Shown here piece by piece: positions 4,091 through 13,746 of a DNA stretch of 13,746 nt. The translations under genes and the position numbers were made by a program. This DNA is from Chlorobiota bacterium (GTDB lineage Bacteria; Bacteroidota; Ignavibacteria; Ignavibacteriales; Ignavibacteriaceae): the NCBI GenBank assembly GCA_008363265.1, contig RHKR01000015.1, positions 1-13,746 of the forward strand, written 5' to 3'. A model generated the notes under the pieces. The model had not been told where the DNA came from, did not search any database, and was given only the letters and a program-made list of their open reading frames with translations. Within the stretch, counting starts at the first letter, position 1. The number at the start of each line of letters is the position of its first letter.

Positions 4091-4118
4091 CTAATAACTG
4101 ATCGCTAAAAGCTATTTA
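4091..4118 (-). repeat. Decayed heptamer array across the stop of the cargo gene
   Basis: On the plus strand the segment reads as four 7-mers, ctaataa, ctgatcg, ctaaaag and ctattta. On the minus strand three of the four carry TAG at the same place in the unit and one has CAG. The copy at 4112-4118 supplies the real stop codon. Similarity to the ttattag units at 10710-10730 suggests the same repeat class, worn by mutation. Confidence 0.5.
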
Positions 4119-5749
4119 GCTAAGATCATTTTCCTCATCGATCTAAACTCACCGGCCTGGATCTCATAGAAGTAAACTCCTGAAGTCAGGTTTGCCGCGC
4201 TGAAATTAACAGAATGCTCGCCGGCAGGCATGAATCCGTTAACGAGTTCGGCAACTTTCTGGCCGAGAGCGTTGTAAACATTCAAAGTTACATTTCCTGC
4301 AACCGGCATCGCGTAGCGGATAACAGTGCTTGGATTGAACGGATTCGGGAAGTTCTGGCTCAAGTTGTATGAGGCAGGTGAAAGATCAACTTCTACAGTG
4401 TTCGAATAGGTGGTTGTACCGTCGAAATCGATCTGTTTCAGTCTGTAGGAATATTTTCCGGCAGAAACAGCGTCAGTATATGAGTAGCTGGAAGTGGAGG
4501 TAGTTGTTCCCTTGCCATCGACAAAAGCCACGGTTGAGAATTCGTTTCCGCTGCTTCTTTCGATCTCGAAGCCACGGTTGTTGGTTTCTGAAGCGGTTGC
4601 CCACTCGAGAAGAACGCCGTCAGCTGAAGAGGTAGCGCTGAACGAAGAAAGTTCAACCGGCACCACATCGACACCGAACTTCACATCGTCAAAATAGTAG
4701 GTTCTTTCACCGGCAATGGCACCTGTTACACCGAAGTTGAAGAAGATCGAAGCCTTGTTCAGGTAGGCGTTAAGATCGAGAGGTGTTGTTCCTGAGACAT
4801 GGTTGCCGAAATCGAACACAAGGGTCTGCCAAACATTTGCCACCGCGAGGGTTGCTTCAGTTTCGCATGAAACGGCACCGTTCTGGTAGTTTTCAACTTT
4901 TAGTCTCACCTGGATAGGGGCGTGAGGTGACCAGACGCGGACATTCATTCTCTTCTCCTGAGCGGTGAAAGGAACTTTTGCCGAGAAACCGGTCTGCTGA
5001 CCGCCTGCTGTTGCAGTGACAGTTGTTCCTGCCCAAAGCTCGGCAGTTGCGGTTTTGATAACTTTTCCAACATGGTTGTTGGCGTTTGTAGGATCAACAA
5101 CGATGGTTGACTGCTCAGCACCGCCGAAACCAACGAGTCCGTAGTTAACAGTAGGATCTTCGAAGGTAACAGGAAGGTTCATCTGGGTGAGGGTTGGGCC
5201 CCCGCCGCCGGAAACGAGTCTGATCTCATCAAAATAATAGGTGAAGTTCGGTCCACCGTTACCAACGGTTCCAAGATCAAAAATGAAAACCATTTTCGAG
5301 TATGTATTGGAAGTGTTGATGGTGCTGAAATCGAAGGTCAGTTCTTCCCACGCGTTGGCGACGGTACATGTATCCTGAAGTTCAAAGAAGATACCACCGT
5401 TAGTGGCGTTTTCAACTTTAAGGAGCAATCTTGCACCGACTACCGGCATAAAAACCTTCACTTTGAAGATCTTATTGGTCGAGAAATCGATATCTCCCGC
5501 CATAGCGATCCACGAACCGCCCCATGGATCGCCGGCATTCTTAACCATCTTGCCGGTAAATCCGGTAGTGTTAATGCCGCCGGGCGCGGGGTTGGCAACT
5601 CTTGTGGCCTGGCCGCCACCAAAGTCAGTAAATGTGTAATTGAGGGTACCGTTCTCAAAGTCGAACGGAAGAACCGGCTGACCCTGAGCGAAAACCGTTC
5701 CCGCCATCAGAAGTGCAGCCACGAAAAGCTGTAAAGCCTTGTTTTTCAT
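4112..5749 (-). CDS. Secreted protein with two beta-sandwich modules and type IX sorting domain
   Basis: A 545-residue exported protein. Residues 1-21 form a signal peptide (cleavage after VFA). Two related modules follow, about 26-180 and 191-360. Both open with a LPFDFENGT / LPVTFEDPT strand, contain a KVEN stretch, and close with YYFDEIRLV / YYFDDVKFG. They look like carbohydrate-binding-type jelly rolls. A VELSSFSA...EWATASETNNRGFEIERS segment at about 364-455 is an Fn3-like linker common in Ignavibacteria. The end, about 461-545, is a type IX secretion type-A sorting domain with NFPNPFNPST and GVYFYEI. The protein should cross the outer membrane by the type IX system and be processed at the C-terminus. 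No catalytic domain is seen, so it is probably a binding or adhesive surface protein. GGAG lies 5 bases before the ATG. It has its own promoter box and terminator, hence looks monocistronic. Confidence 0.9.
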   Translation of the reverse strand: MKNKALQLFVAALLMAGTVFAQGQPVLPFDFENGTLNYTFTDFGGGQATRVANPAPGGINTTGFTGKMVKNAGDPWGGSWIAMAGDIDFSTNKIFKVKVFMPVVGARLLLKVENATNGGIFFELQDTCTVANAWEELTFDFSTINTSNTYSKMVFIFDLGTVGNGGPNFTYYFDEIRLVSGGGGPTLTQMNLPVTFEDPTVNYGLVGFGGAEQSTIVVDPTNANNHVGKVIKTATAELWAGTTVTATAGGQQTGFSAKVPFTAQEKRMNVRVWSPHAPIQVRLKVENYQNGAVSCETEATLAVANVWQTLVFDFGNHVSGTTPLDLNAYLNKASIFFNFGVTGAIAGERTYYFDDVKFGVDVVPVELSSFSATSSADGVLLEWATASETNNRGFEIERSSGNEFSTVAFVDGKGTTTSTSSYSYTDAVSAGKYSYRLKQIDFDGTTTYSNTVEVDLSPASYNLSQNFPNPFNPSTVIRYAMPVAGNVTLNVYNALGQKVAELVNGFMPAGEHSVNFSAANLTSGVYFYEIQAGEFRSMRKMILAK

Positions 5750-5918: not shown

Positions 5919-7358
5919 CTACTGTTTCAGCACCAGTTGCGCCACATTCTCGATGTGCCAGGTGTTTGGGAACATGTCAACCGCCCTCATTTTGGTAAGT
6001 TCATACCCGGCGGCCAGCAGTTCCTTCACATCCCTCGCCTGTGTGGCCGGGTTGCAGCTTACATAAACTATTTTCTTCGGCTTCAGCGTGATAACATCCG
6101 AAAGTGTGTTGGGATGCATGCCGCTTCTCGGGGGATCCAGAATGATAACATCCGGTTTCGGCAGGTTGTTGCCGGCAATAACAGGGAGGAAGCTTTTGTA
6201 AAGATCTGCCATATAGAAGTGGAGATGCGGAGCGTTGTTCAGTTCTTTGTTTACCCCGGCATCCATTATCGCGTCGGCAACTGCCTCGAAGCCGTAAACC
6301 CCTTTGCAGTGCTTCGCCATGAAGATGGTTATCGTACCCGCGCCGCAATAGAGGTCGTAAACTATCTCTTCCCCCTTCAGTTCAGCGTATTCAAGGGTTA
6401 CATCGTAGAGTTTTTCAGCCTGCAGTGTGTTGGTCTGGAAGAATGAATTGGCGCTGATTCCAAAGTTGTACCCGCCGATTTTGTCCTGTATCTTCCCCTC
6501 GCCATGGAGAACGATTTCATACTCTCCCTTGGCAACCTGCGCCTTTGAGGCGTTTATGTTATTAATTATAGTGGTTATCTGCGGGAATTTCTCTTTGAGC
6601 AAAGAGGCATAATTGTAGGCGATAGCCTGTTCTTCGCGGGCGGTAACGAGGTTAACCATCAGATCGTCTGTGTGAGCCGATTGCCTGATCACAAGATTTT
6701 TCAGGTAACCCGTATGTGTTTTGGTCGAATATGCCTCCAGCCCTTTTTCAGTGAAATATTCACGCGTGAAGGCAACGATCTCCTCGGAGACCGGCGACTG
6801 AAGCTTGCACTCCCTCAGGTCGAGTACCTTGTCGTAAACGCCCGGTACATGGAGTCCCAGGAACAAACCTTGATTGGTAACACCGGGATTACCGGCTTCA
6901 TCCTGTGTTAGCCACCGCTTCTGTGAGAAGGAAAACTCCATCTTGTTCCGGTAATAATATTGCTTCTCTGCCCCGGCAACGGGTTCCTGGAGGATATCGG
7001 TTATCCCGCCAATGTTTTTAAATATCTCGGCAACCTGCATCTGTTTGTGTCGGATCTGTTCGCTGTAGGCGAGGTCCTGCTGTTTACACCCTCCGCAGAC
7101 ACCGAAGTGGAAGCAGGCCGGTTCAGTGCGCAGTGGTGACTTCTCCAGAACTTCAACGAGAACCGACTCGGCATAATTTTTCTTGGTTTTCACAAGTTTC
7201 GCGCGAACCCTCTCGCCGGGGTACGCGCCCTGCACAAAAACCACAAAACCCCTCTCATTTTCGGGATTTTCGGGGTCTTTCAGAAAAGCAACCCCTTTTC
7301 CTTCGAAGGCGTAAGATTCAACAACTAATTCGACAATACTGTTTTTTTCCAGTTTCAT
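5919..7358 (-). CDS. rlmD: 23S rRNA (uracil-5-)-methyltransferase, RlmD/RumA-like
   Basis: A 479-residue RNA m5U methyltransferase using SAM. An N-terminal TRAM RNA-binding domain (about 1-70) is followed by the Fe-S cluster cysteines C82, C88, C91 (CFHFGVCGGC) and probably C184. The methyltransferase domain has FFQTN (306-310), SAM motif DLYCGAGT (335-342), DPPRSG (408-413), nucleophile C435 in YVSCNPAT, and general base E470 in WHIENV. All catalytic features are intact and the length is normal. The family methylates U1939 (RlmD) or other uridines (RlmC, RlmCD, TrmA); the target here cannot be settled from sequence. The ATG overlaps the TGA of the upstream methyltransferase by four bases (ATGA), so the two are translationally coupled. 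A palindrome lies just past the stop. Confidence 0.92.
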   Translation of the reverse strand: MKLEKNSIVELVVESYAFEGKGVAFLKDPENPENERGFVVFVQGAYPGERVRAKLVKTKKNYAESVLVEVLEKSPLRTEPACFHFGVCGGCKQQDLAYSEQIRHKQMQVAEIFKNIGGITDILQEPVAGAEKQYYYRNKMEFSFSQKRWLTQDEAGNPGVTNQGLFLGLHVPGVYDKVLDLRECKLQSPVSEEIVAFTREYFTEKGLEAYSTKTHTGYLKNLVIRQSAHTDDLMVNLVTAREEQAIAYNYASLLKEKFPQITTIINNINASKAQVAKGEYEIVLHGEGKIQDKIGGYNFGISANSFFQTNTLQAEKLYDVTLEYAELKGEEIVYDLYCGAGTITIFMAKHCKGVYGFEAVADAIMDAGVNKELNNAPHLHFYMADLYKSFLPVIAGNNLPKPDVIILDPPRSGMHPNTLSDVITLKPKKIVYVSCNPATQARDVKELLAAGYELTKMRAVDMFPNTWHIENVAQLVLKQ

Positions 7359-8092
7359 AATTTCTTTAAGATCATCGTTTTCAGGTTCATGTATCTCAGC
7401 GCGCCTCCCTTGACGAGTGAAGTTATCTCGTGCTTCTCACCGGCGAACTCTTTTCTAATTTTCTGCCTCTGCTCTGCTGATACCGATTTCAGGTTATTTT
7501 CGAGCATTTTGTACGATTTTATGTAAAACTCGTCGAGCTCGTCGTTGAAGTCGGCCACCTTCACCACTTCAAAATTTCGTGAAGTGTAATACGGCTCAAA
7601 ATCACCGGTGAAGAGGGGGTCCTGCCCCGAGTCGGCCCATATATCGTTCAGGAATGTAGGCGCGGGCTTCTTGTTGCAGAGTATCTCGGTGGTTATCAGA
7701 TGTCCGCCCGGTTTAAGCACTCTCTTTATCTCCTTTACCAGTTTGTTTCGTACACCGAGTGTAAGTGTCGCCTGACAGAAGACAAAGTCGAAACTTTCTG
7801 TTTTATGGTCGAGCGATGTGTAATCAACAAACATCGCCGGTACCTGCTGATCCTTTGGGGTGTTTGCCTTGAACCCGAAGATCTCTGTGTTGTCGTCGCT
7901 GGCGGCGTGAATGGGCGTGAATCCCGTGTTCAGGAAGTGGGGCACTATCTCAGTGAAGCCATTTCCCAGAATGAGAAGGGAGCCTTCATGCGGCTGCACT
8001 TCATTTAAAAAGAACTTGATGGGCGCTGAGCCCCCGGGGAGGAAGGGCGATTTATTATCCGGCAATTTTGATCCGATTTTGATATTTTTCAA
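7355..8092 (-). CDS. Class I SAM-dependent methyltransferase, substrate unknown
   Basis: A 245-residue Rossmann-fold methyltransferase. Motif I is LLILGNGFTE at 39-48, the post-II acidic strand ends FVDYTSL (88-94), motif IV is FDFVFCQATL (101-110), and VLKPGGHLIT (125-134) is the typical post-core strand. The C-terminal 100 residues are divergent and do not reveal a substrate. The start is TTG at 8092. The minus strand has no ATG or GTG in frame nearby that keeps motif I at a normal distance. TAAATTTG, a promoter-box match, lies only 5 bases upstream of that TTG, so the message could be nearly leaderless. The stop overlaps the rlmD start (ATGA). It faces the barrel receptor gene across 24 bp. 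It might methylate a ribosomal or small-molecule substrate; nothing in sequence decides. Confidence 0.82.
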   Translation of the reverse strand: MKNIKIGSKLPDNKSPFLPGGSAPIKFFLNEVQPHEGSLLILGNGFTEIVPHFLNTGFTPIHAASDDNTEIFGFKANTPKDQQVPAMFVDYTSLDHKTESFDFVFCQATLTLGVRNKLVKEIKRVLKPGGHLITTEILCNKKPAPTFLNDIWADSGQDPLFTGDFEPYYTSRNFEVVKVADFNDELDEFYIKSYKMLENNLKSVSAEQRQKIRKEFAGEKHEITSLVKGGALRYMNLKTMILKKL

Positions 8093-8096
8093 ACTG

Positions 8097-8104
8097 CAAA
8101 TTTA
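8097..8104 (-). promoter_or_regulatory. TAnnTTTG box in the 24-bp divergent gap
   Basis: The minus strand reads TAAATTTG, an exact consensus match, immediately before the TTG start of the methyltransferase gene. Transcription from it would begin at or just past the start codon, giving a leaderless message. The true promoter may lie elsewhere. Confidence 0.3.
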
Positions 8105-8116
8105 GAGATTATTTAT

Positions 8117-10126
8117 TTGATATCATTGAAAACCATTCTGCCGCTGCTGCTTCTGGCCACTATCACCCTCTTTTCGCAGGAGCGGCCGCCGGTAAGCAGC
8201 GATACAACCAAGACAGCCCAAGACACATCCGGTTATAAACCCCGCGCGCCGCGTGACAGCGTGGTCACGGATACTCTCGCTCCGGTCTATCAACTCCCGA
8301 TGCAAGGAGCCAAGTGGGAGTATACCCAGGACGATCTGAAACTGATGAACTTCCGCGACGGGGCCACTCTTACGGCACACTTCCCTGTCGCGTTCAACAG
8401 AAGCATGGGCTTCCCCGGCCTTCCCTCAGAGGTGACATTCTACGGCGAGGGGAACGGGGAAATCTCGTTCCTCGAAGACGGTATCGAGTTGAATAACCGG
8501 CTTACCGAATCGTTTTATTTTGATAACCTCCACGATGGTTATATAAATACCATATCCCTTTACCCCTCTTATATGGGGTTTTTGCACGCTTACCGTCCCT
8601 CACAAATGACGGTGGCAATTACCGGACGCGATTTCGTATCGGGCGCGCCCTATTCACGGGTGAAATATTTCGAAGGACCAGTTGGCGAGGGTTATATCGA
8701 TGTGCAGTTTAACCAGACCATAAAGAACCGCCTGGTGCTCTTTACCGAGTTCACCAATAACAAGGTTGACGACGGTTACCGCAACAGCAACCTCTCCCTA
8801 TGGAAGGGAAAGGTTAACCTGAAGTACATCCTGTCGAACCGGCTTAACATCGCGGGCGGATACAACTATATACAGCAGGATGTGGGGCTGAACGGTGGTG
8901 TTAACTTCGACTCGGCAAAGTCGCTCGCGGCTTCAATCCCGGGTAGAACTGTTGACGACTTCCTCTACGACGACCGCGCCGCCCCGGTTAACTTCCTTAA
9001 CCGTTACCAGAAGAATACTCAGCACAGGCTGCACTTTAAGGCCTTTGGTACTGTCGGTTCAAGCGGCTACTTCGAAGGAGCGCTCTTCCACCAGACAAAT
9101 CTGAACGAGTTCAGACAAAATGAAGACTCCCTCTTCACCAACCCGAACCGCGTTCTCAGCAACAGGCGCTACACGGTAACGGGAGGCTCTTTCCGCACCA
9201 CCTTCGACACAAAATATTTCGCGGCTGATGTGCATGCCAATTACGAGTCGGTCAATTTCGAGAGTGAATGGTTCGATCCCACAGCGGGCTATATCCCGTC
9301 AGGTGACAGAAAACGGAATTCTTTATCAGCCGGAGGCATACTTACGGGTAAACTTGGCGGCTTCGCCCTCTCGGGTTTCGGCAAATTATTCATCTACGAC
9401 GGCAATTTCTTCCCCGGAATTGGCGGCGAGGCAAAGGCTGAGCTATCTGAAGAGGTTAGTTTCCGTGCCGGTGCTTCATACCTCGAGGGGTACGATCTCG
9501 AGGTTTGGTACAACCGTGCGAACACATTTACTACGAGGCTCGAGGCTGAGCTATCCATAAGGTCGGGTGCACTTCAAGCGTCTCTGCTTGGATGGGGCGC
9601 GAATACTGAGCGGAAATATCAGGGAACTGTAATGCCAACGATCGACCCGCTTATCCCTCTTCCACCGGGTGATCCGAAGAAGCTCGCCTTCGGTGCCGCG
9701 GCATCGGTGGGCTATTCTCTCGGAAGTTTCACCGCATTCATCGACGCGCAATACAACAACAGACAGCTCGAGAATTCAGGTAAGAACATCATCCCCACTC
9801 TGATCGCGAAAGGAGGAGTCTCGTTCCGCGACACTCTTTTCGACGACGCGCTTGATCTTAAGACCACCATTTCATACTCATACCGCACATCAACTGTAGC
9901 CACCAACTACAATTTCTATATCGACCGCGTCTATTACACCCCGTGGTTTGATGATGTGCCGGCTTCGGGGCAGCTCGATTTTCATGTCGCGGGCACGATC
10001 CAGAAAGTGGCAACCCTTTTCTTCGCCTGGGAGAACCTCCTCGGCTCGAAGTATTACCTTTCACCATACTACCCCGTTCTGCCGCGAAACATCCGGTTCG
10101 GCATTACCTGGGAATTTCTGAACTGA
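8117..10126 (+). CDS. TonB-dependent-receptor-like outer-membrane barrel
   Basis: A 669-residue protein with a hydrophobic signal peptide (about 1-20, LLLLATITLFS then QERPP), a Thr/Pro-rich linker to about residue 55, a plug-like region (about 75-190, with ISFLEDGIELNNRL resembling the LDGxPL strand of TonB plugs), then repeated amphipathic beta strands rich in Tyr, Phe and Asn. The end, FFAWENLLGSKYY then RNIRFGITWEFLN, is the usual last strands of TonB-dependent receptors. It is short for a full receptor and no TonB box is obvious, so it may be a plug-reduced member or a porin-like relative. The start is TTG at 8117, with AGAG ending about 9 bases upstream; a second in-frame TTG lies at 8126 and there is no nearby ATG. 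The PAP2 gene follows 6 bp after the stop, so they form an operon. Cargo is unknown. Confidence 0.8.
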   Translation: MISLKTILPLLLLATITLFSQERPPVSSDTTKTAQDTSGYKPRAPRDSVVTDTLAPVYQLPMQGAKWEYTQDDLKLMNFRDGATLTAHFPVAFNRSMGFPGLPSEVTFYGEGNGEISFLEDGIELNNRLTESFYFDNLHDGYINTISLYPSYMGFLHAYRPSQMTVAITGRDFVSGAPYSRVKYFEGPVGEGYIDVQFNQTIKNRLVLFTEFTNNKVDDGYRNSNLSLWKGKVNLKYILSNRLNIAGGYNYIQQDVGLNGGVNFDSAKSLAASIPGRTVDDFLYDDRAAPVNFLNRYQKNTQHRLHFKAFGTVGSSGYFEGALFHQTNLNEFRQNEDSLFTNPNRVLSNRRYTVTGGSFRTTFDTKYFAADVHANYESVNFESEWFDPTAGYIPSGDRKRNSLSAGGILTGKLGGFALSGFGKLFIYDGNFFPGIGGEAKAELSEEVSFRAGASYLEGYDLEVWYNRANTFTTRLEAELSIRSGALQASLLGWGANTERKYQGTVMPTIDPLIPLPPGDPKKLAFGAAASVGYSLGSFTAFIDAQYNNRQLENSGKNIIPTLIAKGGVSFRDTLFDDALDLKTTISYSYRTSTVATNYNFYIDRVYYTPWFDDVPASGQLDFHVAGTIQKVATLFFAWENLLGSKYYLSPYYPVLPRNIRFGITWEFLN

Positions 10127-10132
10127 GGCACC

Positions 10133-10705
10133 ATGGATTTTCTCTTCGGTATCGATACAGCGATCTTCTACTTCTTCAACCACAACCTGAGCTCCCCCTT
10201 CCTCGACCGTTTCTTCGCCACCATCACCGATGTTAACAGCTGGTATATCACATATATCGTCCTCATTGGCATAATGGTAACCTATGGTGGCAAAAGGGGA
10301 AGAATTGCCGCTGTGATGGTCATCCTCATGATCATCGTCAGCGACCAAACCGGCGCGAAACTGCTGAAAGAGTGGTTCGAACGGGTCCGCCCCTGCAACT
10401 TCCTCCCGGATGTTAACACCCCCATCGGTCCCGAGGGGACATGGTCGTTCCCATCAAACCACGCGTTGAACAACTTTGCCGTGGCAACCTTCTTCACTCT
10501 CCTTTACCCCCGCCTGAAGTGGGTACTCTTCATAACCGCGACTCTTATCGCCATTTCCCGAGTATATCTCGGTCTCCATTATCCCTCCGACATCCTCGGC
10601 GGCGCGCTGATCGGAGCAGCCATCGGATACGGTTTCGGGCAACTGCAGATATGGCTTGAGCCAAAGATCAAGTTGTGGGAAAAAAGAGTGATGAGTGATG
10701 AGTGA
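10133..10705 (+). CDS. PAP2-family membrane lipid phosphatase
   Basis: A 190-residue integral membrane phosphatase with all three PAP2 motifs: K79-x6-R86-P87 (KEWFERVRP), P107-S-N-H110 in place of the usual PSGH, and S142-R143-x5-H149-x3-D153 (SRVYLGLHYPSD). H110 and H149 are the expected catalytic histidines. Five or so hydrophobic segments surround them (about 40-70, 112-140, 154-172). PAP2 enzymes of this size dephosphorylate undecaprenyl diphosphate, phosphatidylglycerol phosphate or lipid A. The short form without accessory domains would fit undecaprenyl-phosphate recycling, but substrate is not decidable. The ATG follows the receptor stop by 6 bp, so expression is probably coupled. The last residues MSDE and the stop lie inside a gtgatga tandem repeat, so the C-terminal tail may be repeat-derived. 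Confidence 0.88.
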   Translation: MDFLFGIDTAIFYFFNHNLSSPFLDRFFATITDVNSWYITYIVLIGIMVTYGGKRGRIAAVMVILMIIVSDQTGAKLLKEWFERVRPCNFLPDVNTPIGPEGTWSFPSNHALNNFAVATFFTLLYPRLKWVLFITATLIAISRVYLGLHYPSDILGGALIGAAIGYGFGQLQIWLEPKIKLWEKRVMSDE

Positions 10706-10730
10706 TGAGCTATTAGTTATTAGCTATTAG
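10688..10730. repeat. Two adjacent heptamer arrays spanning the PAP2 stop
   Basis: Three perfect copies of gtgatga (10688-10708), one spacer base, then three copies of (c/t)tattag (10710-10730). The first array contains the TGA stop of the PAP2 gene at 10703-10705. Each unit carries TGA or TAG, so each array closes all three forward frames. It marks the border between core and AT-rich accessory sequence. Confidence 0.9.
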
Positions 10731-10745
10731 CGGAAATTTTTAGGG

Positions 10746-10775
10746 TTGCGGATCAATTATAATTGACTATTTTTG
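10746..10775 (+). promoter_or_regulatory. Bacteroidota-type promoter for the NTase-HEPN pair
   Basis: TTG at 10746-10748, 19 bases, then TATTTTTG at 10768-10775, an exact match to TAnnTTTG at the standard spacing. It is 32 bp before the ATG at 10808. This is the best promoter in the window. Confidence 0.65.
10753..10766. promoter_or_regulatory. 14-bp perfect palindrome between promoter boxes, likely operator
   Basis: TCAATTATAATTGA equals its own reverse complement and lies between the TTG and TAnnTTTG boxes, where a bound dimer would block transcription. A second pair, TGACTA (10764-10769) and TAGTCA (10796-10801), spans the predicted start of transcription. The first gene product has a winged helix, so autoregulation is a natural inference. 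Confidence 0.5.
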
Positions 10776-10807
10776 TAGCCATATGAATAGAAAAGTAGTC
10801 AGTTGAA

Positions 10808-11452
10808 ATGACAGTAAATAACCCTCTTGATGTAATTTTCTCTAACGGTTCAATCGTCCGTATTCTAAGACAGCTAACTCAGACCATGGTGCCTGTTACA
10901 GGAAGGGAATGCGCTCGACGAAGCAAGCTTTCGCAACGGACCGCGGTGGAGAATCTTAACGGATTGGAGACGGCGGGAATTGTTATAAAAATTTTCGGCG
11001 GGAGAGATCATCTTTTCTCGCTGAACCGGGAAAATCTGATCGTTAAGGATGTCATAATTCCCATCTTTGAAAAAGAGAGAAAGCTAAAGAGAGATCTTTA
11101 TAAAATTATCGTCGACAACTATAAAGACTCTGCCACTTCGATCCTCGTTTTTGGTTCGGTGGCCAGAGGCGAAGATAATATTGAAAGTGATCTGGATATT
11201 TGTATCATTGTTCCGGATGAATCCAAGAAAAGAACCGTGGAGAAGAGAACTCTGTATACTTTGTTGGAGGTAAAACAGAAATTCGGTGTTACAGTTTCGA
11301 ACATCCTGCTTACCGAAAAGGAATTCAAAGCGGGACTTGAGAAGAACATTGAACTCTACCAAAACATAATCACCGAATCTAAACTACTTTTCGGTGCGAG
11401 TCTAAAGGAGATTATTCATGGTGAAGCACACGCCCACGAAAAAAGTTTCTAA
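10808..11452 (+). CDS. Winged-helix nucleotidyltransferase, possible MNT-type antitoxin
   Basis: A 214-residue two-domain protein. Residues about 5-80 form a winged helix-turn-helix (VTGRECARRSKLSQRTAVEN as recognition region, HLFSLNRE as wing). Residues about 95-200 form a minimal nucleotidyltransferase with the signature G116-S117-x10-D128-x-D130 (GSVARGED then SDLDI). A third catalytic acid on the later strand (VTVSNILLTE) is not evident, as in many wHTH-NTase fusions. Short MNT partners of HEPN toxins transfer AMP to the toxin; here the added DNA-binding domain suggests it also represses its own promoter. The ATG at 10808 lacks a strong Shine-Dalgarno. The 3' end overlaps the HEPN-like gene by 35 bp. 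The fold call is firm; the antitoxin role is inference from gene pairing. Confidence 0.85.
   Translation: MTVNNPLDVIFSNGSIVRILRQLTQTMVPVTGRECARRSKLSQRTAVENLNGLETAGIVIKIFGGRDHLFSLNRENLIVKDVIIPIFEKERKLKRDLYKIIVDNYKDSATSILVFGSVARGEDNIESDLDICIIVPDESKKRTVEKRTLYTLLEVKQKFGVTVSNILLTEKEFKAGLEKNIELYQNIITESKLLFGASLKEIIHGEAHAHEKSF
11405..11410 (+). promoter_or_regulatory. Ribosome binding site of the HEPN-like gene inside the NTase gene
   Basis: A perfect AAGGAG lies 7 bases before the ATG at 11418, within the coding sequence of the nucleotidyltransferase. It fixes the start of the downstream gene and implies coupled but independently initiated translation. Confidence 0.75.
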
Positions 11453-11825
11453 GGAGAAGTATTCCTCATTTGTACAGGTTGCAGATGGATTTGCCGAAGC
11501 AGCAAAAGTAGCCAGGGAGTTTGACTACCCAAATGCTGCGGGTGTTCTTATCATTCATTCTGTAATTGCGTACGCGGATGCCTTAACCATCAAAAAAGCC
11601 GGACTTAAGTGCAAAGGTGAGAACCACTACGAAGTTATATCTCTCCTCTCCGATAAAATGCCCTTCACTGCTGAGCGACAAAAGGCATTGGATCATTTTA
11701 GTGCTTTGATAAGCCACAAGAACATGATCTCTTATCATGGTCAGATTTATACCAAGGGCGATGTGAGTAAACTGTTTAAACATGCCGAGAGATTTATTGC
11801 ATGGGCGAAGGTAAATCTAGAGTGA
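11418..11825 (+). CDS. HEPN-like protein, putative toxin partner
   Basis: A 135-residue all-alpha protein that reads as a HEPN domain: a first helix AEAAKVAREFDYPNAAGVLI (about 26-45), IHSVIAYADALTI (46-58), a GENHYEVISLL segment (68-77), and a last long helix (115-133). Canonical HEPN ribonucleases carry R-[N/D/H]-x4-H. Here the equivalent is K101-N-x4-H107 in HKNMISYHG, so the arginine is replaced by lysine and a Tyr (Y106) precedes the His. It may belong to a HEPN branch in which Lys and Tyr are usual, such as the SAV_6107-like group; I cannot confirm this. It overlaps the nucleotidyltransferase gene by 35 bp and has its own AAGGAG. The pair resembles HEPN/MNT toxin-antitoxin modules. Ribonuclease activity is uncertain given the substitution. 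Confidence 0.75.
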   Translation: MVKHTPTKKVSKEKYSSFVQVADGFAEAAKVAREFDYPNAAGVLIIHSVIAYADALTIKKAGLKCKGENHYEVISLLSDKMPFTAERQKALDHFSALISHKNMISYHGQIYTKGDVSKLFKHAERFIAWAKVNLE

Positions 11826-12185
11826 GTGCTCTCCTTCTTTAGCGTATGTGAAGAAAACCATTCCGTTTGCACTACGAGAGTGCTACTGGCCATCATAGGA
11901 TGAATCCTGAATGAATGATATGAAACAAAAGTTCTAACTCTATTCAAACAGTGAAATACACTTGAATGTTGTTCATTTAATCAAAATACATTATTTTGGT
12001 GTATCGTGAAATAATTGTGATTTACAATAAATAGCAAATTGTCAATCTCTTTTGGAGACTGCAGTACACCATTTTACATGGGTTTTTACCAGTATGAACA
12101 TTGGCCTGCTTCAATTAAACAAATACTGAAAAAGTTCATTACTCTGAATAGATTGTCAAGCTACTGCTCAGCAAGGAGCGATTAA
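11826..12185. other. AT-rich intergenic region before the HAD-PRTase gene
   Basis: This 360-bp gap has no convincing gene. It holds a perfect inverted repeat CAAAATA-cat-TATTTTG (11982-11998) and a small one ATTGT-N5-ACAAT (12014-12028), either of which could belong to the promoter of the next gene. No exact TAnnTTTG box is seen; TTATTTTG at 11991-11998 is one base off. A 35-codon frame (12078-12185) ends directly at the next start and is treated as doubtful. Confidence 0.5.
12173..12178 (+). promoter_or_regulatory. Ribosome binding site that decides the TTG start
   Basis: A perfect AAGGAG ends 7 bases before TTG at 12186. A TAA in the same frame sits immediately upstream of that TTG, so no earlier start is possible, and the HAD motif begins at residue 9. 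This makes TTG the start with good confidence. Confidence 0.75.
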
Positions 12186-13457
12186 TTGATCGAGAAGCTT
12201 GTTTTACTGGATCTTGACGGGGTCTTAACAGACACAACCGAACCTGTATTCAAGAAATTTAAAGACGGCCTTGAAAAGTGTGACTTAAATAGCATCCCAA
12301 TGATTGATGGGGCTATTGACTTCATTAAGCGTCTTAAAAGTAATAGTGGCATCAAGATTGCAGTAATTTCTGACAGCCATCCCCATTATGTACAACCCAT
12401 CATTACAGAATTCTTCGATGTACCCTTTTTAGCCCTCGCTGACAAACCTAATACTTCGAAAACAAAAACTTTCCTTCTGAACACATTTGGAGAAATAAAG
12501 GATTTCAACCGTCGCGCGATTATGATCGGTGACTCATGGTTGGATATAGAATTGGCCAGGGGGCTGGAGATTCCTTCAATTTACACCAAATTATATAAGT
12601 TTAAGACAATAGATATTCGAGATGACTTAGGCAGTCATGACCGTGCCCTGAAGTCTGGACCTACATTCGAGGCTGGCTCCTTTAATGAAATTGAAGATAT
12701 TTTATCACAACCGAAGCAGAAATTGCTCTGTCTAGAAGCGTACTTTGTCAAAGATAAATCATCAGTTTCAAGAGAATTGAGTTTGACGGAGGTTTGTGGG
12801 AAGACTAAAACAGTGATATCACTTTCTCGCCAACAATTGGGTGGTTGCGACAGGTTTGGTCTCCTTAATATATACAACGAATTTCAAAAGATAAACCGCA
12901 ATCCTGAGGTCGTTTCGACTTTGGCATCAGGTCTCAATTATTTTCTGGCGCAATTTCAGAGCTCGATTACACTTAACGATCCAATACTTTCCTACATTCC
13001 CGAGAAGTCCAATACATCAAATCCCAAAAAAATGGTTGAAATATGGGAAAAATTAGATGCGATTCAGTCAAAGGAAAGCCTATTTCTCTGGGATGGAATT
13101 ATTAACAACTCCACAAAAAGTTATGCGCATAAATACGATAGACAGAAATTTCTTGAAACTCATCTGCAGGTGAAAAACGAATCAATAGATGGGAGGGATG
13201 TCATCGTAATTGACGATCAATACACGACTGGTGCCACGGCTGAAACATCGATCAACAAACTCTGGGAAAAGGGTGCAAAAAATGTATATTTCATAACTTT
13301 CTTTTATTTAATTAATCTGGTTGTAACTGACAAGGTCTGCCCAAAGTGTGGCAAATATTTTCAGATCAAGGTTAGAAAGAAAGATGGTGCCAAGTTCTTG
13401 TCCTGCGCTTCTCCTGAATTTGGAGGAATTGGTTGCGGAAACATTCAAAATCTCTAG
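12186..13457 (+). CDS. HAD phosphatase - phosphoribosyltransferase - zinc ribbon fusion
   Basis: A 423-residue three-part protein. Residues 1-175 are a HAD hydrolase: nucleophile D9 and acid D11 in DLDGVLTD, motif II S62 (VISDS), likely K87 (DKP), and GDSWLD at 115-120. Residues about 180-375 are a phosphoribosyltransferase. The PRPP loop is VIVIDDQYTTGAT (339-351), preceded by YDRQKFLETHLQVKN, which resembles the substrate segment of ComF-like PRTases. Residues 385-417 form a zinc ribbon with C385-x2-C388 and C407-x9-C417, of the topoisomerase tail type. No signal peptide. Starts at TTG with an ideal AAGGAG. A DprA-like gene begins 9 bp later, so they form an operon. ComF proteins also join a zinc finger to a PRTase and act with DprA in DNA uptake; HAD plus PRTase pairs occur in predicted nucleotide-centric conflict systems. 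Its substrate is unknown. Codon use is AT-rich. Confidence 0.85.
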   Translation: MIEKLVLLDLDGVLTDTTEPVFKKFKDGLEKCDLNSIPMIDGAIDFIKRLKSNSGIKIAVISDSHPHYVQPIITEFFDVPFLALADKPNTSKTKTFLLNTFGEIKDFNRRAIMIGDSWLDIELARGLEIPSIYTKLYKFKTIDIRDDLGSHDRALKSGPTFEAGSFNEIEDILSQPKQKLLCLEAYFVKDKSSVSRELSLTEVCGKTKTVISLSRQQLGGCDRFGLLNIYNEFQKINRNPEVVSTLASGLNYFLAQFQSSITLNDPILSYIPEKSNTSNPKKMVEIWEKLDAIQSKESLFLWDGIINNSTKSYAHKYDRQKFLETHLQVKNESIDGRDVIVIDDQYTTGATAETSINKLWEKGAKNVYFITFFYLINLVVTDKVCPKCGKYFQIKVRKKDGAKFLSCASPEFGGIGCGNIQNL

Positions 13458-13466
13458 GTTTAAAAT

Positions 13467-13746
13467 ATGATAAATTTAACAATGATCGCCCTCGGTCAAC
13501 TTAAGGGAATTGGCCCATCTTTCTTGAGGAATCTTGACTATAATGCAATTGAGCAACAAAAATGCACAGTAATCGAAGCTCTTCCAGAGCTATTGGCTTC
13601 AAAAGGTAAGCGATTCGATCCTGAAGAATTAACTAAGGCGATCGACACAGCGGAACAAGTTGTCTATGATTGCAATCGATTGGGAATTCAAATCCATAAC
13701 TTCAGGGAGAAAACATATCCCGGTATAATTTATGATTCAAAAGATC
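13467..13746 (+). CDS. DprA/Smf-like protein, N-terminal part (cut by window end)
   Basis: The first 93 codons of a gene that continues past the window. The opening LGQLKGIGPSFLRNL (about 9-23) resembles the helix-hairpin-helix-like start of DprA/Smf proteins. KAIDTAEQVVYDCNRLGIQI followed by HNFREKTYPGIIYDSKD matches the stretch just before the Rossmann (SLOG) core, where DprA proteins read roughly YPxxLxxIxDPP. The ligand-binding core itself is not in the window, so the call rests on these motifs. Classical DprA loads RecA on incoming single-stranded DNA; SLOG-fold relatives also occur in conflict systems as nucleotide sensors or processors. ATG 13467 is 9 bp after the upstream stop, with AGG at suitable distance; ATG 13482 is the alternative. 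A second, defence-type DprA paralogue is plausible. Confidence 0.7.
   Translation, partial: MINLTMIALGQLKGIGPSFLRNLDYNAIEQQKCTVIEALPELLASKGKRFDPEELTKAIDTAEQVVYDCNRLGIQIHNFREKTYPGIIYDSKD

Follow-up and report, generated by a model that had tools for sequence, protein, structure and literature searches.

The window analysed here is an entire contig of 13,746 bp from a Chlorobiota draft genome that is 82% complete and distributed over 627 contigs. Near its end the forward strand carries a gene (12186–13457) for a 423-aa protein, assigned below to the ShosT-type toxins, which starts with TTG 7 nt downstream of an AAGGAG element. The product joins a HAD phosphatase, a type I phosphoribosyltransferase (PRTase) and a C4 zinc ribbon, all encoded on the same strand. 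The HAD domain (residues 1–178; 12186–12719) bears the catalytic positions D9, D11, S62, K87, D116 and D120, the last two within the motif G115-D116-S-W-L-D120. The PRTase domain (about residues 182–379; 12729–13322; bounds drawn by eye on the AlphaFold2 model) contains the PRPP loop DDQYTTGAT from D343 to T351 (13212–13238), and the zinc ribbon (13332–13445) is built on C385, C388, C407 and C417. In an alignment of 89 sequences, the window's included, the residues of the HAD, PRPP-loop and cysteine motifs are invariant or at least 90% conserved, with D343, D344, T347 and T351 of the PRTase invariant. The three-domain fusion that a preliminary description had read from the letters of this DNA is confirmed. 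Pfam detected the HAD domain above its cut-off (PF00702, 2.1e-10) and the other two domains below their own cut-offs (PRTase, PF00156, 0.0039; Zn_ribbon_Top1, 0.0063). The AlphaFold2 model of the whole toxin is confident (mean pLDDT 93.7, pTM 0.91). An Rfam scan of the window returned no match at the gathering threshold, and a scan for promoters and terminators found fewer sites than in shuffled sequences.

After a gap of 9 bp (13458–13466) a second gene begins on the forward strand. Its N-terminal 93 codons are present (13467–13746) and encode the start of a DprA-like, ShosA-type antitoxin; as the contig is exactly 13746 bp long, the gene is cut by the assembly. A DprA-type N-terminus had been proposed at this place, and the comparison with homologous loci bears this out: the fragment resembles the DprA-like proteins that accompany homologous toxins (E 4.7e-11 with the partner at locus L029 of Fibrisoma montanum, 1.8e-9 in the reverse search). 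Pfam and PADLOC alone gave no match in the 93-aa fragment. When the rest of the antitoxin was sought in the genome's own assembly, at the completeness given above, this N-terminus and a housekeeping dprA were the only sequences returned.

From about 10.5 kb onwards the GC content lies at 0.38–0.43; before that it is 0.47–0.54 in most 1-kb intervals, the first having 0.42. The same low-GC tract that contains the ShosTA-type pair also holds the toxin-antitoxin-like neighbours mentioned in the preliminary description, namely overlapping genes for an HTH-nucleotidyltransferase (PF01909) and a HEPN protein (PF05168, just under its cut-off) at 10808–11825. These match the PADLOC candidate system PDC-M05 (A 1.7e-16, B 0.025), and we take them to be HepT/MntA-like. 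Further upstream (4112–5749) lies a gene for a secreted-looking protein, which presumably ends in a type IX-secretion-like sorting tail, a feature pointing to a host of the Bacteroidota-Chlorobiota kind.

We examined linkage of the two genes in 34 related loci from named genomes. A DprA-like gene directly adjoins the toxin gene on its downstream side in 27 of the 34 (at L034 the contig stops within it). At L053, from a Prevotella metagenome-assembled genome (MAG), toxin and DprA-like antitoxin are fused into one protein of 884 aa (9998–12652) with more than 100 extra residues between the halves, and at L059 in Cypionkella psychrotolerans a degraded pair is found (6301–8700), in which the N-terminal half of the toxin is missing and the reading frame of the antitoxin is broken. 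L052 has no partner; its toxin is truncated, with homology lost at the very end. Four loci could not be judged, L055 and L056 being placed at contig edges and L061 and L062 being fragments or outside the family. The 27 loci together with the fusion and the remnant indicate a conserved operon and not a chance neighbourhood; the linkage to DprA extends well beyond the genome of the window.

Several observations concern the surroundings of these loci. Upstream of the pair remnant at L059 a transposase-like frame was recognized by eye. In several Bacteroidota loci, ATPase-like ORFs of 600–780 aa, also recognized by eye from a P-loop, lie near the pair (L039 6843–8990, L047 6650–8827, L058 12295–14637, L035 13308–15110); the one at L039 matches the NsnB and PDC-M55A models, and such an ORF is possibly a recurrent neighbour of the pair. 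A PglZ or BrxL gene adjoins the homologues at L048 and L050, and a type I restriction or methylation gene those at L038 and L041. In the scan for defence neighbours 8 of 10 proteins matched a model at 1e-10, these 10 having been picked by eye from 88 neighbour proteins for likely matches.

A PRTase next to a DprA-like protein could also be read as ordinary competence genes. ComF carries a zinc site and a PRTase and works with DprA in transformation, and a solved ComF structure is among the fold matches of the toxin model (7p0h, 2.0e-05). However, a separate housekeeping dprA is encoded elsewhere in the genome, on contig C118, as the preliminary description had suggested looking for, and a housekeeping-type dprA is likewise present in all 20 other genomes tested, which belong to 20 of the 34 loci, so that the gene at the window is not the sole copy. 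Competence DprA has a C-terminal winged helix. In the sequences displayed from the alignment this element is present in three housekeeping DprA and absent in six partners and in three ShosA; full-length relatives of the window partner thus appear to have the Rossmann core of DprA and to lack its C-terminal winged helix, a trait taken from the relatives, as the C-terminus of the window's own partner falls outside the contig. A GIG/GVG-type motif lies near the N-terminus of most partners (24 of 27) and of 9 of the 21 housekeeping DprA; the three ShosA lack it. In a quick DprA tree, from which the cut partner of the window was left out, one branch (SH-aLRT 100) has all 27 partners to one side, and another (95) does the same for all 21 housekeeping DprA. 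Judged by this tree, the partners are a clade apart from housekeeping DprA.

The distribution of the toxin gene also speaks against a competence function. A search of 97 genomes, the window's own and its relatives, at E 1e-3 gave matches in 20, of which only the own genome had a full-length one; the other 19 extend over 39–73 residues, and the two that were inspected are, by eye, ComF and a PRPP synthetase. Across the phylum, at E 1e-15, the own genome is the only one of 395 with a match. Neither the other 96 relatives nor the 394 further members of the phylum that were searched yielded a full-length copy, which fits the accessory character ascribed to the gene earlier, and we consider a role as plain transformation genes hardly credible. 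The own genome has five other PRTase places. No match to the ComF model PF18912 was obtained in it, a model that detects just 6 of 14 controls.

Homologues of the window toxin occur in Bacteroidota, Cyanobacteria and Pseudomonadota. In the DprA tree the partner from a Limnohabitans MAG (Pseudomonadota) is nested in a group of Bacteroidota partners, which suggests transfer or else a misbinned contig. Among phage records the window protein matches only the Pseudomonas filamentous phage PfAC02a and one unannotated record, both partially. Of the two matches in plasmid records, one is a real pair from Psychrobacter, and the other is a PRTase-zinc fragment beside a SIR2 gene. This fragment of about 150 aa (L066, 2800–3258, Bradyrhizobium plasmid pBs162S2c) lies between an IS3 element and the SIR2-family gene and is perhaps a shed effector piece. 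In viral contigs, 20 pattern matches to the window type contained no confirmed relative; the E. coli type of ShosT introduced below was found at 22 loci, one of them a short match, and 6 of 39 loci of the type of the Pseudomonas phage (Pf type) cover most of the query.

In order to place the toxin among known proteins, its model was compared with 350,542 PDB chains using Foldseek. The top three matches are ShosT structures (8zvd 5.6e-11, 8zvb 3.5e-10, 8zvc 5.0e-10) aligned over 444–458 columns including gaps, and the next match follows at 3.7e-6. The TM score of about 0.3 and the rmsd of about 20 Å suggest that the domains are placed differently from those of ShosT. Among the 50 matches listed by VIA-align, the HAD domain alone was covered, and ShosT was not among these. 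At the profile level hhalign relates the window family to Pf-type ShosT with E 3e-30, collinear across HAD, PRTase and zinc ribbon, and Pf-type is in turn related to E. coli-type ShosT with E 3.7e-21. When the window family is set directly against E. coli-type ShosT, the match is modest (E 1.1e-7, probability 94), with a median identity of 14.6% across 400 random pairs. Pfam matches of E. coli ShosT itself to HAD and PRTase are below the cut-off. PADLOC calls the toxin ShosT and the full-length partners ShosA, and its models match all 28 toxins and all 7 partner proteins compared. However, control proteins scored above the family of the locus with the same models (own housekeeping DprA 1.2e-67 with ShosA, ComF-like ORF 5.7e-12 with ShosT). 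The PADLOC models are therefore non-discriminating here, and we base the assignment on the profile comparisons, the tree and the fold.

The low direct identity to E. coli ShosT and the reversed gene order of the E. coli system could also mean that HAD-PRTase and DprA parts were put together independently, giving a toxin-antitoxin module that has no more than a resemblance to ShosTA. The DprA tree is in line with such an origin as far as E. coli ShosA is concerned, which does not group with the window-type partners and lies on a long branch on the housekeeping side; DprA may thus have been recruited more than once. In contrast, ShosA of Pf and Psychrobacter adjoins the partners (88), Pf-type ShosT joins both ends through long profile matches and the best structural matches are ShosT, so that we regard an independent origin of the whole module as very improbable. 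We conclude that the window locus belongs with the anti-phage toxin-antitoxin modules known as ShosTA, in a divergent class with intact HAD, and put the probability of this reading at roughly 0.83. The preliminary description had considered the system possibly undescribed. This does not hold, since a DprA-like antitoxin beside a PRTase toxin is known as ShosTA from the excerpted texts of PMC9122126 and PMC12593503 and from the ShosT and ShosA structures in the PDB.

Within ShosTA the toxins separate further. We aligned 306 sequences, comprising 119 window-type, 82 Pf-type and 105 E. coli-type rows. The three HAD residues D9, D11 and D116 occur together in 118 of the 119 window-type rows, the remaining one having a gap, and in 80 of the 82 Pf-type rows, with gaps in the other two; no E. 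coli-type row (0 of 105) has all three. An alignment-free check with the pattern GDxxx[DN] gave the same picture (119/119, 81/82 and 0/105, respectively). The pattern DxD[GNSA] within the first 80 residues was found in 118/119, 63/82 and 13/105 sequences; some Pf-type rows, such as P0239, carry D at its fourth place, and of the 13 E. coli-type rows 11 owe the match to another stretch, ADRD, and 2 to other places. The four zinc cysteines are aligned in all 119 window-type rows, in 75 of 82 Pf-type rows and in no E. coli-type row (0/105), while any CxxC past residue 330 occurs in 117, 75 and 2 sequences, respectively. Gene order follows the same line: the toxin leads in the window type, at the 27 loci whose partner is a separate gene downstream and in the fusion, and likewise in 8 of 8 Pf-type loci, whereas the antitoxin comes first in all 18 judgeable E. 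coli-type loci, three more beginning at contig edges. These counts mean that HAD state, zinc ribbon and gene order go together in three lineages. What is new here is a split within ShosTA, as read from sequence and gene order, between a HAD-intact, zinc-ribbon, toxin-first group and a HAD-lost, ribbon-free, antitoxin-first group. We found no description of a HAD-intact versus HAD-lost split in the literature titles and abstract openings searched, a set outside of which the primary ShosTA mechanism paper falls.

What is known of ShosTA offers a frame for the function of the pair. The excerpt of PMC9122126 describes a pair of DprA and PRTase from P2-like phages that gives protection against T7 and lambda; it likens this pair to shosTA and names DprA homologues as antitoxins in shosTA and other systems. 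As far as the excerpted text of PMC12593503 goes, ShosTA is anti-phage; ShosT, described as both a phosphoribosyl transferase and a pyrophosphatase, upsets purine metabolism, which results in DNA duplications, filamentation and death; ShosA binds DNA, and the trigger is Gp0.7 of T7. By analogy, phage infection would free the window-type toxin, which would use PRPP and thereby disturb the purine nucleotide pool, and the DprA-like partner might bind DNA and either restrain the toxin or repair the damage. We infer that the HAD half could act on a phosphate of the PRTase substrate or product, that is PRPP, pyrophosphate or a nucleotide, and would in this way supply a real phosphatase or pyrophosphatase step, making the toxin a two-step enzyme. 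The zinc ribbon may serve as a contact to nucleic acid or to the partner. Pyrophosphatase structures of Bacteroides thetaiotaomicron are in the Foldseek list, among many other HAD enzymes.

Another function has been put forward for the two proteins: the PRTase and the HAD would produce or degrade a nucleotide and the DprA-like protein of the SLOG type would sense it, the pair forming a signalling system not described before. Both enzyme sites look intact and the SLOG-type Rossmann core is present, and the natural fusion at L053 suggests joint action of the two halves. However, the module type is already known as ShosTA with a DprA-like antitoxin, and in the gene lists, inspected by eye, none of the other genes lies next to every pair, the ATPase-like ORFs being near some of them. 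Sensing of a PRTase or HAD product by a SLOG protein is also unsupported by the excerpt of PMC12593503, where ShosT disturbs purine pools and ShosA binds DNA. We think it highly unlikely that the locus is such a signalling system.

Returning to the assignment to ShosTA, the window pair can be described as a variant whose toxin apparently retains an intact HAD domain and a zinc-binding tail, both lost from the E. coli version studied in the laboratory. Although solved structures and a proposed mechanism exist for ShosTA, the ShosT structures found represent the lineage that has lost the HAD catalytic residues. Because the site is intact in the window and Pf types, the mechanism of E. coli ShosT may cover only part of the family. 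We tentatively suggest, at somewhat less than even odds, that ShosTA might comprise two mechanistic classes. One, comprising the window and Pf lineages with their intact HAD, zinc ribbon and leading toxin gene, would have a toxin that works as a two-enzyme machine, its HAD phosphatase either adding a second toxic step or acting as an internal safety catch. The other, the E. coli type that has been studied, would be derived: it would have given up the zinc ribbon and HAD catalysis, and its gene order is the opposite, so that its mechanism could not simply be transferred. With the HAD-intact class, which occurs in Bacteroidota, Cyanobacteria and Pseudomonadota, the role of the HAD half can be tested directly, and the natural fusion is a ready object for structure work.

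Several known systems resemble the window pair. ComF and DprA of natural transformation share with it a PRTase with a zinc site and the DprA Rossmann core. ComF is a PRTase of about 240 aa without HAD; the ComF-like ORF of our comparison (named by eye) has 243 aa and lacks the HAD domain present in the 423-aa window toxin, and housekeeping DprA differs in keeping the winged helix and in being encoded elsewhere in the genome. PsyrTA is similar in the PRTase-like stretch of its toxin and in its DprA-like antitoxin, as judged by the PADLOC models. The PsyrT model has 689 positions and matches only 64 residues of the 423-aa window protein, in part of the PRTase (E 0.003); as PsyrT toxins have about 690 aa, the window protein was not assigned to them. 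ShosTA of E. coli and P2-like phages is represented in the PDB by ShosT (8zvb-d, 9w2p, 9w2q) and ShosA (9vzo, 8zva). It has in common with the window pair two adjacent co-directional genes, one for a DprA-like antitoxin and one for a toxin whose PRTase is preceded by an N-terminal HAD fold, whereas the state of the HAD residues, the zinc ribbon and the gene order set the two apart as described above. The other ShosTA form comprises the pair of PfAC02a (OR790968, so annotated), representing the Pf type, and a similar one from Psychrobacter, whose genes on plasmid pA3H5 bear the annotations HAD-IA hydrolase and DprA. Their toxins share about 22% identity with that of the window, are longer (478–487 aa) and contain a second zinc-ribbon-like stretch, and both pairs sit on a phage or plasmid, unlike the window type with no relative confirmed in viral contigs. 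As in the window, however, they combine an intact HAD, a PRTase and a zinc ribbon in a toxin encoded first, followed by a DprA-like antitoxin that falls near the window-type partners in the tree.
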